24,450 bases of DNA from a virus. The position numbers and the translations under genes are program-made. Positions 2,459-20,905 of the stretch are shown here, in pieces. Below the pieces are notes generated by a model. The model was given only the letters and a program-made list of their open reading frames with translations. It was not told the origin of the DNA and searched no databases. Numbering within the stretch: the stretch's first letter is position 1; every line of letters starts with the position of its first letter. Where the stretch lies: positions 1 to 24,450 of the IMG/VR virus record IMGVR_UViG_3300034375_001343; one strand, written 5' to 3'.

Positions 2459-4795
2459 ATGTCTATAGGACTTGGTATAGGTAATTCTATTGGTGGTAAG
2501 ATAAGTGGTGGCTATGATCAAGCAGCTCAAGCGTATTTTACAGCAGTAAAAAACGAGGGCGGGTCTTTGACGTCTCTAGAAAAAGACCTTGTAAACACAT
2601 GGTTCGTCACTGAACGAGCAGCAGGAAGACTATCTAAGTACAAGGCTGTCTACCCATTCAAGGGTAGGAACTCTGCGGCTGCGGCAATCAACATGGTCAA
2701 TCCTTCGACCTACGACCTCGCATTCCCCAACTTCGTAGCAGGAGACTTTGCTACTTCTGGTTATCTAAAGCCAGATGGTTCTACTAAGTATGCGGACATG
2801 GGTGTTTCGTATCCCGAAGTTGTTAGCTCTATTGACGATATACAATTAGGCTGGTTATTTGATGAAACTATTACTGGCGGCTTTGAGGTTTTAATGGGTA
2901 ATTATAGAGCTTCTGATAATGCAATAACAACTATTCAAATGAATGGGGCTACACCTCAAGCAAGAATGTATGCTGGTGCAGTTGCAGATGGTGTTACAGC
3001 AGGAAATTTAACTGAAGATAATCTTTATGTTGGCTCTAGAACATCATCAAGCAGGATGGACTCTTATGTTGATAGTTTAGAAGGCTTACCTCAAACGGGT
3101 GCTAGAACTGTTGGGTTTTCAGATTTAAACATTGCCATTTTTGCTAGAAACAACAATGGAACTATTGGCAATCACACCCAATGGGCATCAAAGCTAATCT
3201 TTATAGCAGAAGGTATCACAGCGGCAGAACAAGACGATGTTAACGAGTCCGTCAAAAATCTAGTTGTAGACACTGACGCACAAGCCTACATCCAAGAGGT
3301 ATTCGACCAAGGAGGAACCCTCACCCTAGCACAACAAGCTGCGGTAAACAATCTAGTGAAGTCTATGAAGGCTGATGGGTTGTGGGATGGGGCTATCAGG
3401 TTATATCCATTTATGGGTGGTACGATTGATGCGGCTAGAATAGACCTTATAAGTTTAGGGCAAGCTACGAACAATAACTTCGTTGACGCAGATGTAAATG
3501 CTAAAATAGGTTTAACTGGTGATGGTTCCACAAAAGCAATTACAGGTACCAATCTAGCTACTGAACTCAGCTCCATATTTAATTATCAAATATTTGACTT
3601 TGTTGGTACAATAGACCCAGACGATAACTCATATTCTTGGGGAGGTTTTTCTTCATCTAATCAAGTTAGCCTAAGAACACCAGCTAGTGGTAGGTATTTC
3701 TACTACTCGAATCTTGTTTCGGTATTGTTATCGTCTCCATCGAATGTGATGGCTAATGGAGACTCAATTATTACCGCAAGATACTCTACAACGGACTCCA
3801 AATTGTACTTGAATGGGGAAGAACTGACATCAAGCACAACAGATGTTAGTTCTGCAACAACTTTCGGTCCAGACGTAGCATTGTTTGCTGCGTTACAAAA
3901 TGGGACTGGGTTGTCAGCTTACTCCACGCAAGAAAAATTAGGGTGGGTTGCAATGGAAAACCTGAATGAAGAAGACGCCTTAAGATTCGAAAAACTCTAC
4001 AAAGCCTTCATCCAACAAGTACAAGATGGAGAGACATACGAAACAGATGCAGCTGCATATTTTCAAGCTGTAGAGGATGCAGGTGGAACATTAACAAATA
4101 ATGTTAAGTCTGAGTGGGATGCTTTTGTTAGTCGTGAAGTAGTAGCAGGAAGATGGTCTAAGATAAAAAGATTATATCCGTATTTAGGTGGTGTTATTAA
4201 CTCAGCTGTAATTGATGCTATTACGTTAAATGCCGCAACTAATAATAACTTTGTTGATGCTGATGTTGATGCTACAATAGGTTTAACAGGGGATGGTAGT
4301 ACGAAATCAATAATTGAAAGTGGGGATATAACAAATATTATAACAGATGATTACAATTTTGCAATTGGTACTTTTGCTAAAGATCCAGTTGGCGTAACCC
4401 CTTCAGGGCAATATTATACACAGTATTATGATGGCTCAAATAGAATTGCAATAAGGAGGCTGTTTAATTCAATTGGCGCATACTCTGGTTCTGTAAGCAC
4501 ATATTTTTATGATAGTACAGATATAACTGCTGAATCTAATTGGTCTTTTATTATGGGGCAATATACTTCAAGTAGCAGAAGTATATTATTTAATGGAACT
4601 AACGTAAAAACAAATACAGCAACAAGTTCAAATCCAGCGACAGGTTTTATTGGAGACCCATATAAATATGATCATTACTATTTTACTTATGGTGGGCAAT
4701 CAAATAGCTCTTTTATAAGTCAAGGAATGTCAGAGACAGAATTAATTGCCTTTGAGTCATCCTACAAAACATTCATTAACAATATAACAGCTTAA
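2459..4795 (+). CDS. Three-module tail fibre / adhesin with LamG-like domains
   Basis: The product has 778 aa. After a Gly/Ile-rich N-terminus (MSIGLGIGNSIGGKISGG), which may anchor it to the virion, it contains three tandem modules of about 250 residues starting near residues 22, 274 and 531. Each opens with a helical segment (AQAYF/AQAYI/AAAYF, then GG[ST]LT and, at about 45 residues, YPF or YPY). Each continues with a strand-rich domain containing DGSTK, and ends with a short helix such as MSETELIAFESSYKTF. The strand-rich core with this terminal helix resembles concanavalin A-like/LamG lectin domains, suggesting binding of host glycans or surface proteins. No peptidase or autocatalytic tip is visible. 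Modules 2 and 3 share ATNNNFVDADV, which module 1 lacks. Codon use changes along the gene. Receptor binding is inferred. Confidence 0.75.
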   Translation: MSIGLGIGNSIGGKISGGYDQAAQAYFTAVKNEGGSLTSLEKDLVNTWFVTERAAGRLSKYKAVYPFKGRNSAAAAINMVNPSTYDLAFPNFVAGDFATSGYLKPDGSTKYADMGVSYPEVVSSIDDIQLGWLFDETITGGFEVLMGNYRASDNAITTIQMNGATPQARMYAGAVADGVTAGNLTEDNLYVGSRTSSSRMDSYVDSLEGLPQTGARTVGFSDLNIAIFARNNNGTIGNHTQWASKLIFIAEGITAAEQDDVNESVKNLVVDTDAQAYIQEVFDQGGTLTLAQQAAVNNLVKSMKADGLWDGAIRLYPFMGGTIDAARIDLISLGQATNNNFVDADVNAKIGLTGDGSTKAITGTNLATELSSIFNYQIFDFVGTIDPDDNSYSWGGFSSSNQVSLRTPASGRYFYYSNLVSVLLSSPSNVMANGDSIITARYSTTDSKLYLNGEELTSSTTDVSSATTFGPDVALFAALQNGTGLSAYSTQEKLGWVAMENLNEEDALRFEKLYKAFIQQVQDGETYETDAAAYFQAVEDAGGTLTNNVKSEWDAFVSREVVAGRWSKIKRLYPYLGGVINSAVIDAITLNAATNNNFVDADVDATIGLTGDGSTKSIIESGDITNIITDDYNFAIGTFAKDPVGVTPSGQYYTQYYDGSNRIAIRRLFNSIGAYSGSVSTYFYDSTDITAESNWSFIMGQYTSSSRSILFNGTNVKTNTATSSNPATGFIGDPYKYDHYYFTYGGQSNSSFISQGMSETELIAFESSYKTFINNITA
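2522..4795 (+). repeat. Three diverged tandem protein modules within the fibre gene
   Basis: The modules begin at about 2522, 3278 and 4049, giving periods of roughly 753 and 771 nt. Modules 2 and 3 are closest: both encode ATNNNFVDADV followed by IGLTGDGSTK, but they differ at many third positions, so the duplication is old at the DNA level while the protein has been conserved. Module 1 is the most divergent and keeps mainly the helical opening and the DGSTK motif. Confidence 0.8.
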
Positions 4796-14683: not shown

Positions 14684-15781
14684 ATGGCTATAAATGTTAA
14701 TGAAGTATATAAAACTGCTTTGTTGATCCTGAATAAGGAACAAAGGGGTTATGTTACTCCCAATGAGTTTAATAAAATAGCCACTCAAGTTCAGCTGCAA
14801 ATGTTTGAAAACTATGCGGAAGAACTAAACCAGCAGCTTCGAATCCCACAGGCCGATGCAGACTACTCTGACAGGGTCATGAATACGGATGAGAAGCTTT
14901 CTGTATTTAAAGAGATTGATAAACCATACTACAATACAGATCACTACGAGCTTCCTGGATGGATTGACCCAGCCACTGGGACATCACCCACTGGCAATAC
15001 TGATACATTCTACCGACTAGGTTCTATTGTGTATAATGGCCTGAACGGAAAGCAAGTAGAGGCACAAAGGCTTCAGAGGTTTGATTTTTATAACATTCAA
15101 AACTCACCACTTACAGCATCAACAACAAGCTTTCCAACGTATCTATACGAGGACAATAAAATTTATATCAGTCCATCGACAATTAATGGACAGTACGATG
15201 CGAGTCCAGTTTACAATAATATATCCGTAAGCTATCTACGCAAACCAAAAAACCCACGATGGGGTTATAGTGTTGGCTCTCTGGGTCAGTACATCTACGA
15301 TGCAACCACATACGGCGATGCATTAATCAATACAGGAACTGGGACATTAACATCTAGCATAAGCACCAACCCAACAAATAAGGACGCTGCGGTTACTACT
15401 GGTGTAAACCCATCTGCTACATCTGGGTCTGGTACTGGTATCGAGGTGACAATAACAACTACTGGTGGTGCTGGTTCAGCAACCGTAACAAGTGTGACAG
15501 TTACTAACGCAGGTTCTGGTTATGCCTCTGGTGACACCATTACATTTTCTGGGGCAAGCTTCGGTGGCGGTGTTGGTGGCGATATGATCATCACACTCAC
15601 TGATGCGAACTTTAATGCAAATAGCACATACGGATCTACAGACATCGAACTTCATGTGTCAGAGCAAACCGACTTTATAATTAAGCTCCTGTTCTATTTT
15701 GGTGTAGTTATAAATGATCCAAATATAATTCAGGCCGCTGTTCAAGAAGCTAGATCTGAGGAGATAAACGAAAAAAGCTAA
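14684..15781 (+). CDS. Ring/adaptor (head-tail connector) protein with inserted beta domain
   Basis: The 365-aa product has an alpha-helical start (VNEVYKTALLILNKEQRGYV, VQLQMFENYAEELNQQLR) and a beta region with FPTYLYEDNKIYISP and NISVSYLRKPKNPRWGY. It ends in a helix after ELHVSEQTDFIIKLLFYFGV. This matches the ring-protein family that stacks under the portal in crAss-like phages. Residues about 213-315 are a Gly/Thr/Ser-rich beta domain (core motif NAGSGYASGDTITFSGA) that interrupts the native fold and is homologous to a domain in the 1301-aa protein downstream. Flanking 9-bp direct repeats mark its edges. Removing the interval between the repeats leaves TTYGSTDIELHVSE in frame, which reads as a normal ring protein. 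Leader is A-rich (AATAATAAAAAAACT). Ring identity is by recognition and position. Confidence 0.7.
   Translation: MAINVNEVYKTALLILNKEQRGYVTPNEFNKIATQVQLQMFENYAEELNQQLRIPQADADYSDRVMNTDEKLSVFKEIDKPYYNTDHYELPGWIDPATGTSPTGNTDTFYRLGSIVYNGLNGKQVEAQRLQRFDFYNIQNSPLTASTTSFPTYLYEDNKIYISPSTINGQYDASPVYNNISVSYLRKPKNPRWGYSVGSLGQYIYDATTYGDALINTGTGTLTSSISTNPTNKDAAVTTGVNPSATSGSGTGIEVTITTTGGAGSATVTSVTVTNAGSGYASGDTITFSGASFGGGVGGDMIITLTDANFNANSTYGSTDIELHVSEQTDFIIKLLFYFGVVINDPNIIQAAVQEARSEEINEKS
15307..15633 (+). repeat. 9-bp direct repeats bracketing an inserted domain
   Basis: CACATACGG occurs at 15307-15315 and again at 15625-15633. The offset is 318 nt, exactly 106 codons, so exact deletion between the copies keeps the frame. 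The repeats coincide with both edges of the Gly/Thr-rich inserted domain of the ring protein, and both encode the residues TYG. This looks like the footprint of an insertion by duplication or short-homology recombination. Confidence 0.7.
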
Positions 15782-16999: not shown

Positions 17000-19900
17000 A
17001 TGGCAGAAACTAAAAATGTTTTTCTTGGGGCTAAGATGAATAAAGATCTTGATCCAAGATTAATATCCAATAGAGAATATATTGAGGCTAGAAACGCGTC
17101 CGTCACTGATTCAGCTGGTGGAGACTCAGGGGTATTGGAGAATGTTTTTGGTAACAGTGAGCTGACAACCTTTGGTCTTACAGATAGCCACCTTAAAATT
17201 ATTGGCTTTTATGTAGACACTGCCAACGATAGGTTATTTGCTTTTTTAACAAACTACACAGACTCATCTGCTACGGCTTTAGATAACTACGCACCAAGCG
17301 GATCCGCACACTATATAGCCATGTATAACACCATAAACGGTGAATACACAATTTTAGTTGGTGGCAGCTTCCTTAACTTTTCAGATACACACGAGGTACT
17401 TGGTATAGACCTTATAGAGAATCTACTGTTCTTTACAGACAACAGAAATCAGCCAAGAAAAATTAATGTTGACCTAGCTATAGCCAACCCATACGGTTCA
17501 GCAAACCCATACTACACATCCGAAGAGCATATATCGGTCGCTAAATACTACCCATATCAGGCACCATCCTTAAGCACGTTGAAGGGTGATGGTAGCATAG
17601 CTAACGGAACAATTATACCGATAGATAGCCCAGTAATTATTACTGGTGTTGCATCTCCAAGCTCTGCTATTTTTACTGTTGGTGTTACATCTGGTGTTAC
17701 CACCGATGGAGCTGGGGGTACGCTAACTTGTAATGTCACAACATTTGCAAGTGGAACCCCAAATACACTATATGTGGGATCAATATTTGTTAATGTTGCA
17801 CCAACTGATGCGAATAACAACTATGTAGTTGGTGATAAGATAACAATTACAGCGGCAACTTTAGCGTCATTTTTTGGTGGCCCTGCGAGTAAAAATGCCA
17901 CCTTTACCATCAGTAGACAGGACTTTGCTAGAACCCCATCCATGTGGGATGTAGTTAGTGAAAACCTTCCTCTACCATATACCACAACTGCGGCGGCTGG
18001 GGGTACTGGGTCGTTTACAGTCACTGGTACTGCACCAAACATAAATTATATTGGTGCCATAGTTACATCGACAACATCTGGAGGCAGCCCAGTAATTACT
18101 GTTTCGGACGGTATTACGGTTACTAACGTAGCTGGCTCTGTAGTAACCACATCTGGCGGTACATTTAGCGCTACAAATAAGGTAACAATTGGGGCGAACC
18201 CATACTACGACCCAAACTTCACGGGTGATAAGAATTTCTTATCTGACAAGTTTGCTCGATTCAGCTACAGATACAAGTTTGAGGATAACGAATACTCCCT
18301 AATAGCCCCGTTCTCTCAGGCTGCGTTTATACCGAAGCAGGATGGGTACTTCTTAGAGGAATCTATTCCTACGAGTATCTTAGACGATGCAGCAGATAGT
18401 GATGAGAACAACACCATTAAAAGCACCATAATTGACTTCTTTGAAAACAAGGTAAATAAAATAGATATTGCCATACCAATGCCTGATGACGCATTCGTGT
18501 CTAATACGTTAGCTGAGGGGAGTGGTGTTTTGACGTCAAGCATAACAACCAACCAGATTGATTTTGCGGATGGACTCTATTCTGGAACAGTGGGTGTGAC
18601 GGCTGGGTATTCATCCTCTGGAAGCGGCATTGGATTAGAAATTAATATCAGTGTCGTAGGTGGTTCGGTGATTGATGTTAGCGTTGTGTCTAGCGGATCT
18701 GGTTACATGGTTGGAGACACCGTTACAGTTTTAGGGGCTATTTTGGGTAGCGTTACTGGAGACCTAATTATAACACTTCAATCATTAGCATTCAACAAAG
18801 ACAGCATATACAATAAGTATAAAGTAAAAGAAATTGACGTACTATTCAAGGATTCTGAAGGTAACGCGATAAAGGTTGTGGATACAATTGATTTCGATGA
18901 TTTAGCCTCGTCCACTGGTAGTGAGTATGTGTATACATACAACTCATCAAAACCGATTAGAACCCTACCATCAAAGGAAACTGTAAGAGTTAGCGACCAG
19001 GTTCCATTAAGAGCAAGAGCGCAAGCCGTAGCTGGTAATAGGGTAATTTACGGCAATCTCACACTAAGGAGTGCATCGTTAAAAAGCCTTAACTACAGCG
19101 TTACTGCTGGGGATAAATTAGATTATGGGTTTGGTGGGCCTGGGTCTAAAGAGGAGTACCCAAACCACTCACTAAAGCAGAATAGGACATACCAGGTTGG
19201 TATTGTTCTTGCTGACAAATATGGAAGGCAGTCAGATGTAATCACATCAGACACATCTACAATATACCATCCATATAAGGATGATGTTATGAATTTGAAT
19301 TTTCTTGGTGATTCACTTCAGGCCACATTTAATGCTCCAATACCGTCTGTGTCGTCTACCATTGGGTATATAGGACTCTATGATGCCACCACAAATCCAC
19401 TTGGGTGGTACAGTTACAAGTTTGTTGTGAAGCAGCAAGAGCAGAGCTACTACAATGTATACCTACCAACTATACTAAATGGATACCCTCAAGATGTTAG
19501 TTCATCAGCACCTCATCCAACTAGTTATAGTACAGTTCAAGACGAAGCCTATATAACACTATTTTCAGATAATATTAATAAAATACCAAGGGACCTTCAG
19601 GAGGTTGGGCCGCAAGACCTTCAGTTTTCAAGTTCTGTCAGGGTTTTTGGAAGGGTTTACAATACTGGATTTAGTTCATCAAATCCAACCAACAGGCAGT
19701 ATTTCCCTACGATATCAGGTGATGAGGTCACGTTGATTGGTGACAGAAATGAAATTGGATTAGACACTACGTCTGAGGGTGATGAGTATTACAGCTCACC
19801 GTTTTATAGCATACCCACCAACAATGTTGGTACTGTTCCTGGGGATGGAGCTGATTTGAGAGGGGCGAACCCATACATAGGAAGAGTTTCTACCGTGAAT

Positions 19901-20905
19901 CTAATTGGTGCTGTTGGTGGTGGGGATTTAACTACACCTTCTGGTTTTGATCCACCAGAGGTAACAAATTTAAATACACGCCTAAATGTCTATGAGACTG
20001 CTCCATTTATCTCAAATCTAGAGATATTCTGGGAAAGTACATCTTCGGGGCTTATATCTGCACTTAACTCATATGTAAAGCAAGACTTTTCTGAGCTTCC
20101 AGTGTCTATAGCTAACTTAGAATGGAATCTTTCAGAGGACGCCATACCCCCTAGTGGTTTTATTGCAGTTCCAGAGATAGCTCGATTTGATTTAGCTGCC
20201 GCCAATGGTGAGGTAATTAGCAACACCACCACCACAGCTATGCTAGTAGAGGTAAGGAATGGTAATGGAGGGATTGTCACAAACAAGTTTACACTGAATA
20301 GGGACAATTCTCTTAACCAATTCTATATTACACCGTCACCAGGTACATACTTTGTATATACAGAGAACAGCAGGATATTTGACAATTATTCATTTACGAT
20401 AAGCGCCACAAACAACTCTGGACCAGCCTCTTTAATCTCTACTGGATTTGGTAATTACCTAGCAAATGTAGCGCCAACAGCAACTGCCACTGGTAGCGCA
20501 TCACTTCCAGAGATTATACCGCCATCTACATGGGCTACATTTACTGTAATGGATGGGGATAATGGCGCAGCTCAAGTTTCTGATCAAAAGAACGGCTTGA
20601 TTTGGGAGGTTACAAAGGTTGAGTTTCAGTGGACAGGAAATGGTGGGGCTTGGACACAATACAATACCCCAGTATCGGATATGTTTAGAGTAGTAAAAGG
20701 TAGTGGCCAATCCATTCCAGAGACGCTTCAGTATAACAACCAGTTAATTTGCCTTGATGTAAACGCAACCAATGAGGCAAACTTATACAACTATAGTAAT
20801 AGGGTAGATACAGATGTAAGGGTTACGTTGAAGCTGACTGACGCTAGTGGTTCTGGATTGAGTTACGAAACAGTTGAGACAACAACGCTAACTAGAACTA
20901 ATTGA
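17000..20905 (+). CDS. Tail hub / tubular-type protein (beta-rich, multiple inserted domains)
   Basis: The 1301-aa product opens with FLGAKMNKDLDPRLISNREY, a start I associate with the tail tubular/hub protein of crAss-like and other short-tailed phages (P22 gp10 / T7 gp12-like). A repetitive strand-rich part follows that could form a propeller or barrel. A core segment (DKFARFSYRYKFEDNEYSLI) and a later conserved-looking stretch (TYQVGIVLADKYGRQSDVIT) mark the native fold. The fold is interrupted by Gly/Ser/Thr-rich beta domains at about residues 210-305, 328-397 and 501-603. The third is homologous to the ring-protein insert. The C-terminal 350 residues are also beta-rich and Ig-like. It starts 6 nt after the upstream stop and ends 1 nt before the next start. 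The protein should form part of the short tail tube; whether it is hub or muzzle cannot be told by sequence alone. Confidence 0.7.
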   Translation: MAETKNVFLGAKMNKDLDPRLISNREYIEARNASVTDSAGGDSGVLENVFGNSELTTFGLTDSHLKIIGFYVDTANDRLFAFLTNYTDSSATALDNYAPSGSAHYIAMYNTINGEYTILVGGSFLNFSDTHEVLGIDLIENLLFFTDNRNQPRKINVDLAIANPYGSANPYYTSEEHISVAKYYPYQAPSLSTLKGDGSIANGTIIPIDSPVIITGVASPSSAIFTVGVTSGVTTDGAGGTLTCNVTTFASGTPNTLYVGSIFVNVAPTDANNNYVVGDKITITAATLASFFGGPASKNATFTISRQDFARTPSMWDVVSENLPLPYTTTAAAGGTGSFTVTGTAPNINYIGAIVTSTTSGGSPVITVSDGITVTNVAGSVVTTSGGTFSATNKVTIGANPYYDPNFTGDKNFLSDKFARFSYRYKFEDNEYSLIAPFSQAAFIPKQDGYFLEESIPTSILDDAADSDENNTIKSTIIDFFENKVNKIDIAIPMPDDAFVSNTLAEGSGVLTSSITTNQIDFADGLYSGTVGVTAGYSSSGSGIGLEINISVVGGSVIDVSVVSSGSGYMVGDTVTVLGAILGSVTGDLIITLQSLAFNKDSIYNKYKVKEIDVLFKDSEGNAIKVVDTIDFDDLASSTGSEYVYTYNSSKPIRTLPSKETVRVSDQVPLRARAQAVAGNRVIYGNLTLRSASLKSLNYSVTAGDKLDYGFGGPGSKEEYPNHSLKQNRTYQVGIVLADKYGRQSDVITSDTSTIYHPYKDDVMNLNFLGDSLQATFNAPIPSVSSTIGYIGLYDATTNPLGWYSYKFVVKQQEQSYYNVYLPTILNGYPQDVSSSAPHPTSYSTVQDEAYITLFSDNINKIPRDLQEVGPQDLQFSSSVRVFGRVYNTGFSSSNPTNRQYFPTISGDEVTLIGDRNEIGLDTTSEGDEYYSSPFYSIPTNNVGTVPGDGADLRGANPYIGRVSTVNLIGAVGGGDLTTPSGFDPPEVTNLNTRLNVYETAPFISNLEIFWESTSSGLISALNSYVKQDFSELPVSIANLEWNLSEDAIPPSGFIAVPEIARFDLAAANGEVISNTTTTAMLVEVRNGNGGIVTNKFTLNRDNSLNQFYITPSPGTYFVYTENSRIFDNYSFTISATNNSGPASLISTGFGNYLANVAPTATATGSASLPEIIPPSTWATFTVMDGDNGAAQVSDQKNGLIWEVTKVEFQWTGNGGAWTQYNTPVSDMFRVVKGSGQSIPETLQYNNQLICLDVNATNEANLYNYSNRVDTDVRVTLKLTDASGSGLSYETVETTTLTRTN
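18500..18810 (+). other. Inserted domain homologous to the ring-protein insert
   Basis: Encoded residues about 501-603 of the hub protein share a pattern with residues 213-315 of the 365-aa ring protein. Both have G-x-LTSSI-[ST]-TN near the start, SGSG-x-G-[IL]-E in the middle, then GSGY-x-x-GDT, then GD-x-IITL and AFN or NFN before S-x-Y at the end. The DNA is clearly diverged, so the sharing is old or independently acquired. The domain is predicted to be all-beta. Confidence 0.7.

Follow-up and report, generated by a model that had tools for sequence, protein, structure and literature searches.

How did a Gly/Thr-rich segment of about a hundred residues come to lie within a conserved virion protein of 365 aa, and do the two perfect copies of a 9-bp word at its edges record the event? 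The DNA analysed here, called the window, is a stretch of 24,450 nt from a viral record of IMG/VR, and records compared with it are given by their L numbers. According to the original prediction, the segment is a domain inserted into a ring protein, the repeats may be a readable scar of the insertion, and such domains move as cassettes by short-homology recombination or a duplication-forming mechanism. The geometry on which this proposal was built is correct: CACATACGG occurs exactly twice within the window, both times on the + strand, at a spacing of 318 nt (106 codons) that keeps both copies in one codon phase of the 365-aa ORF, and removal of one period between the copies gives the in-frame product IYDATTYGSTDIELH, a TTYGSTDIELH-type ring sequence as claimed.

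The host gene product matches phrog_14543 ("virion structural protein") with E 2e-22, and its core is related by tblastn to those of phi38:1 and the elemo phages. The gene lies between the capsid genes and that of a large tail protein, in the order terminase, portal, capsid protein, a 297-aa product, the ring protein, a 401-aa product and a 1301-aa tail protein, which is also the order in Cellulophaga phage phi38:1. The AlphaFold2 model of the protein (pLDDT 86.7) gives Foldseek matches to 7qoj chains D, E and F, which are tail-barrel rings of phicrAss001 (E 2e-5 to 5e-5), as well as to the tail rings of SU10 and Pa223; a sequence search of the PDB with the ring profile gave no match. Both the sequence family and the modelled fold are those of a crAss-like or phi38:1-type ring protein, and the product is most probably a tail-barrel ring protein of a marine phi38:1 / crAss-like podovirus. 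The matched ring fold needs no insert, since the three 7qoj chains have only 226–238 aa. Elsewhere in the window, the 153-aa product of an ORF at 112–573 begins like a lipoprotein (LLLVTTSCSEAKK), has a transmembrane stretch late in its sequence and might act in lysis as a spanin-type protein. A 778-aa ORF (2459–4795) consists of three related repeats of ~260 aa, two of them with a near-identical ATNNNFVDADVxAxIGLTGDGSTKxI, and resembles a repetitive surface or fibre protein. Among the other records, L202:2472-3566 has an apparent frameshift near the ring gene end relative to L203 (FYFWSCGKRPSN), probably a sequencing error.

Table 1. Coordinates of the ring gene, the inserted domain, its edge repeats and further copies (positions in the window unless a record is named).
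Feature	Position	Strand	Basis or remark
Gene of the ring protein (tail-barrel / adaptor-type; 365 aa) in which the domain is inserted	14684..15781	+	phrog_14543; AlphaFold2 model
Inserted beta domain, ~102–106 aa, residues ~212–313 (modelled 208–317)	15305..15634	+	GTG...GSGY..GD motif
Left copy of CACATACGG	15307..15315	+	Encodes T-TYG; GTT TAT GG in most relatives
Right copy of CACATACGG	15625..15633	+	Encodes S-TYG; within STYGSTDIEL, the conserved domain tail / re-entry
Tail protein gene, 1301 aa, second host gene of the domain	17000..20905	+	phrog_14478; block homologous to phi38:1 gp097
Third, diverged copy, aa 221–311 of the 1301-aa protein	17660..17932	+	HMM E 7e-5
Second domain copy, aa 499–604 of the 1301-aa protein	18494..18811	+	E 1e-15, 47% identity; HMM 1.6e-22
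Domain-empty site, aa ~834–836 (PQDV|SSS)	19499..19507	+	Alignment; filled in L115, L041, L118, L119, L045
Nested domain copy, one within another (aa ~221–403)	L194:4749-9536
Domain ORF, ~205–240 aa	~4.4–5.1 kb in L080, L085, L092, L096; 3.5–4.3 kb in L083

The segment occupies a single loop between the last strands of the beta part of the ring (YIYD | STDIEL). In one tree of 88 ring homologues, 32 have 100–125 residues at this loop and 56 have 2–15, and these 56 break at precisely the insertion site of the window. Folded alone, the insert is predicted with a pLDDT of 90.8 (from an alignment of homologous copies); residues ~212–313 come out as an independent beta domain, and the ring core fold without it is known from phicrAss001. 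These results support the proposed domain insertion, and the Gly/Thr-rich segment is, as modelled, a separate domain set into a conserved loop of the ring protein. It is judged to be old because it is common to ring genes at ~35% protein identity. Structural matches of the insert in BFVD are marine phage virion proteins, among them fibre, baseplate and other virion proteins of marine cyanophages, with a probability of 1.0; they are suggestive only, the best E value being 0.0026 and none falling below 0.001. No solved structure in the PDB was related to the insert below E 0.001, Pfam gave no match (BACON and Ig families included), and assignment as an Ig-like or BACON domain was rejected on these two results; annotated phages gave no tblastn match to the isolated domain. 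The analysis thus brings to notice a widespread, uncharacterised and putatively surface-exposed domain of marine phages without a solved structure.

That the domain entered or left by recombination between the 9-bp copies, or by a target duplication, with the repeat as its scar, is suggested by the exact, in-frame position of both copies at the domain edges, by an excision product just two residues longer than natural empty alleles, and by L004, which likewise has a 9-nt match at the insert edges, although a different one (ACATATGGG). Of the 32 distinct ring genes with an insert, however, just one has the perfect pair, that of the window (record L003 is identical to it). In L004 and L005 (92% identical) the left and right sites agree at 8/9 positions, and in all other relatives compared at 4–7/9; in most relatives the left site reads ACN-GTT-TAT-GG, which matches the right site at 4–6/9. 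At the protein level, STYG at the right edge is kept in close relatives. Given the protein, the identity is also near what chance provides: synonymous codon shuffling makes the two sites identical in 5.3% of the shuffled versions, exact 9-mer repeat pairs number 5 in the ring gene where shuffled versions average 4.27, and 60 maximal 9-mer repeats with spacings of 150–400 nt are present in the window. The repeat is therefore neither conserved in close relatives nor above chance. Nor do empty alleles carry a single copy of it. In phi38:1, the Flavobacterium elemo phages and MW202828 the loop has no insert and is FFNPSADDFQDFEL-like; empty alleles read YD-xxx-STQIEL or YDTN-NSTDIEL, as exemplified by YDTTLSTQIELD and by the L199 version TATGATACCACATTATCTACTCAAATAGAA, all without TYG. 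A search of IMG/VR with a pattern for the excision-type allele found no match, while the control pattern for the natural empty allele matched 6 contigs. With an insert old enough to be shared at ~35% identity as a further objection, the scar explanation is exceedingly improbable for the window, and recombination between 9-mers as a general mechanism is refuted. The comparison of sites instead points to a chance identity of two Thr-Tyr-Gly stretches with different origins and no part in the insertion: the left TxY would derive from the host loop, since some long-loop empty homologues read YDPTIYNPNTNPGGSRDFEL, and the right STY from the domain tail. Homogenisation of the two copies (TAC/TAC in the window, TAT/TAT in L004) was also considered; other genes have no such pattern, and it was taken as chance.

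What moves with the insert is some 100 bp of flanking ring sequence, which speaks against the short-homology or duplication-forming route via the 9-mers. On a tree of the ring core only, presence of the insert changes 7 times, at least 4 of them forced by well-supported branches; the tree gives no direction at the ring site. The clearest case is a pair of records, the empty L199 (its allele identical in three contigs) and the full L198 (from one metagenomic contig), which have 466 of the first 470 nt in common, are alike again past a patch of ~150 bases, and share 99–100% identity over most of the gene. Within core positions 521–600, around the junction at 585, identity falls to 70–78%. All ten quartet sites that join L198 with the full L036 and L199 with the empty L195 fall at 533–579, and the 14 sites joining L198 with L199 all lie outside the patch (permutation p = 5e-5 for this clustering). 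Compensatory selection on the loop could be suspected here, as several changes alter loop-adjacent residues (WGF/WGY, GA/GL); this explanation is very improbable, since some of the linked sites are synonymous third positions, and the patch states agree site by site with other full or empty alleles, 10 to 0. The patch pattern argues for homologous recombination in the flanks rather than excision between 9-mers, and at the level of sequence the presence or absence of the insert is exchanged together with ~100–150 bp of flank by homologous allelic replacement. Another explanation makes the domain ancestral to the ring family and the empty alleles repeated deletions. Four empty records (L045, L218, L195 and L199) are indeed nested in the insert-bearing clade, so some losses, or replacements by an empty allele, are likely. 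As a general account it is nevertheless unlikely: most homologues, even distant ones such as phi38:1, the elemo phages and MW202828, are without the domain, as are the solved phicrAss001 ring proteins, and the L199/L198 contrast is one of allele replacement and not of simple deletion.

Inserts are also exchanged for one another. In three pairs with near-identical ring cores (L007/L012, L010/L205 and L018/L213) the inserts are of different types, 38–60% alike over most of their length, and the breaks fall at conserved domain edges (LNTG..TLTSSIT ... ITL...FN..STYGST); in the domain tree, the L007 insert groups with a different type from that of its core sister. Other carriers of the domain are the 1301-aa tail protein, ORFs of ~205 aa close to the capsid gene and a second ring paralogue. 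The tail protein is probably a nozzle or muzzle protein, and a PDB sequence search with its profile gave no match. Its site at aa 499–604 is empty in L115, L041, L118, L119, L120, L042 and L045; the first four, all close relatives, have instead a copy at the position equivalent to aa ~834 of the window, and L120 has neither. Several relatives carry copies at the site equivalent to aa 221–311. A tail-protein copy in L036/L194 is nested in a further copy of the domain, is missing from the related phage L195, and shares 76% aa identity with the L036 ring insert and 84% nt identity over 211 bp with the ring insert of its own genome. The domain tree, in which some branches are long, nests this tail-protein copy among ring copies, and the hypothesis that ring copies form a single clade is rejected (p-AU 1.6e-5). 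ORFs of ~205–240 aa bear the domain near their N-terminal half in L080, L083, L085, L092 and L096; in L085 the ORF follows the capsid gene immediately and possibly encodes a head decoration protein, and the window is without such a gene. An additional ring paralogue precedes the main ring gene in L059:4406-5398 and, similarly, in L223, L225 and L246; that of L059 bears the domain, though in another loop, which follows the helical part. The domain is thus shared by proteins that are otherwise unrelated, varies between presence and absence in orthologues at a single site (32 with, 56 without), and exceeds 70% identity between unrelated host proteins (the L036 ring and the L036/L194 tail protein), as expected of a mosaic domain with recent transfer. 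The proposal that such domains move as cassettes is upheld by the allele replacement, the type swaps and the copies in other genes.

Taken together, we favour, with a probability of about 0.8, an old inserted virion surface cassette that is exchanged by homologous recombination and sometimes copied to other virion genes, the 9-mer being irrelevant. An independently folding beta domain of ~105 aa, belonging to a family of virion surface cassettes, would have entered the ring loop YIYD | STDIEL long ago; empty and full alleles would then be exchanged through recombination in the conserved flanks of the ring gene, one domain type would be replaced by another through recombination at the conserved domain edges, and the domain would at times be copied into other virion genes, notably into different loops of the downstream tail protein. 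It probably decorates the exterior of both barrel and tail, where it would modulate how the virion meets the cell surface. More tentatively, and with the odds somewhat against it, the conserved edges may act as built-in homology arms, with marine crAss-like phages sharing a pool of interchangeable surface domains for barrel, tail and head proteins; if true, this would be a general system for re-surfacing the virion. Full and empty alleles in near-identical backgrounds reveal the route by which a barrel protein, presumably an essential one, can acquire, lose or exchange a probably outer domain, namely homologous recombination in the coding sequence on either side.

Among known systems, the tail-barrel rings of phicrAss001 (R1–R5; gp43, gp40, gp35, gp34; PDB 7QOJ; PMC10172136) have a similar core fold, with a helical and a beta part, and their genes likewise lie among portal, capsid and tail genes, although sequence similarity to the window ring is below HMMER detection and 7qoj chains D, E and F have no inserted domain. 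Another counterpart is the ring-type structural protein gp095 of phi38:1 (phrog_14543), which has an orthologous core in the same gene order but, unlike the window, an insert-free loop, FFNPSADDFQDFEL. BACON domains are known in crAss-like phages (de Jonge et al., 2019, PMC6949934) and, as with Ig-like domains of phage virions, are small beta domains moved horizontally among structural and tail-associated proteins; the window insert differs in matching neither family in Pfam. Insertions in the muzzle and capsid proteins of crass phages are also known (PMC10172136). Domain mosaicism in phage proteins was described by Smug et al. (2023, PMC10684548), whose text makes no mention of crAss phages; as there, virion proteins that are unrelated in other respects share a domain of ~100 aa, with identities above 70% that mark recent exchange, and unlike there, the full/empty swap is directly visible within a barrel ring gene. 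Because domain shuffling in virion proteins has already been described (PMC10684548, PMC6949934, PMC10172136), the case is a well-documented addition to a known kind of phage evolution.
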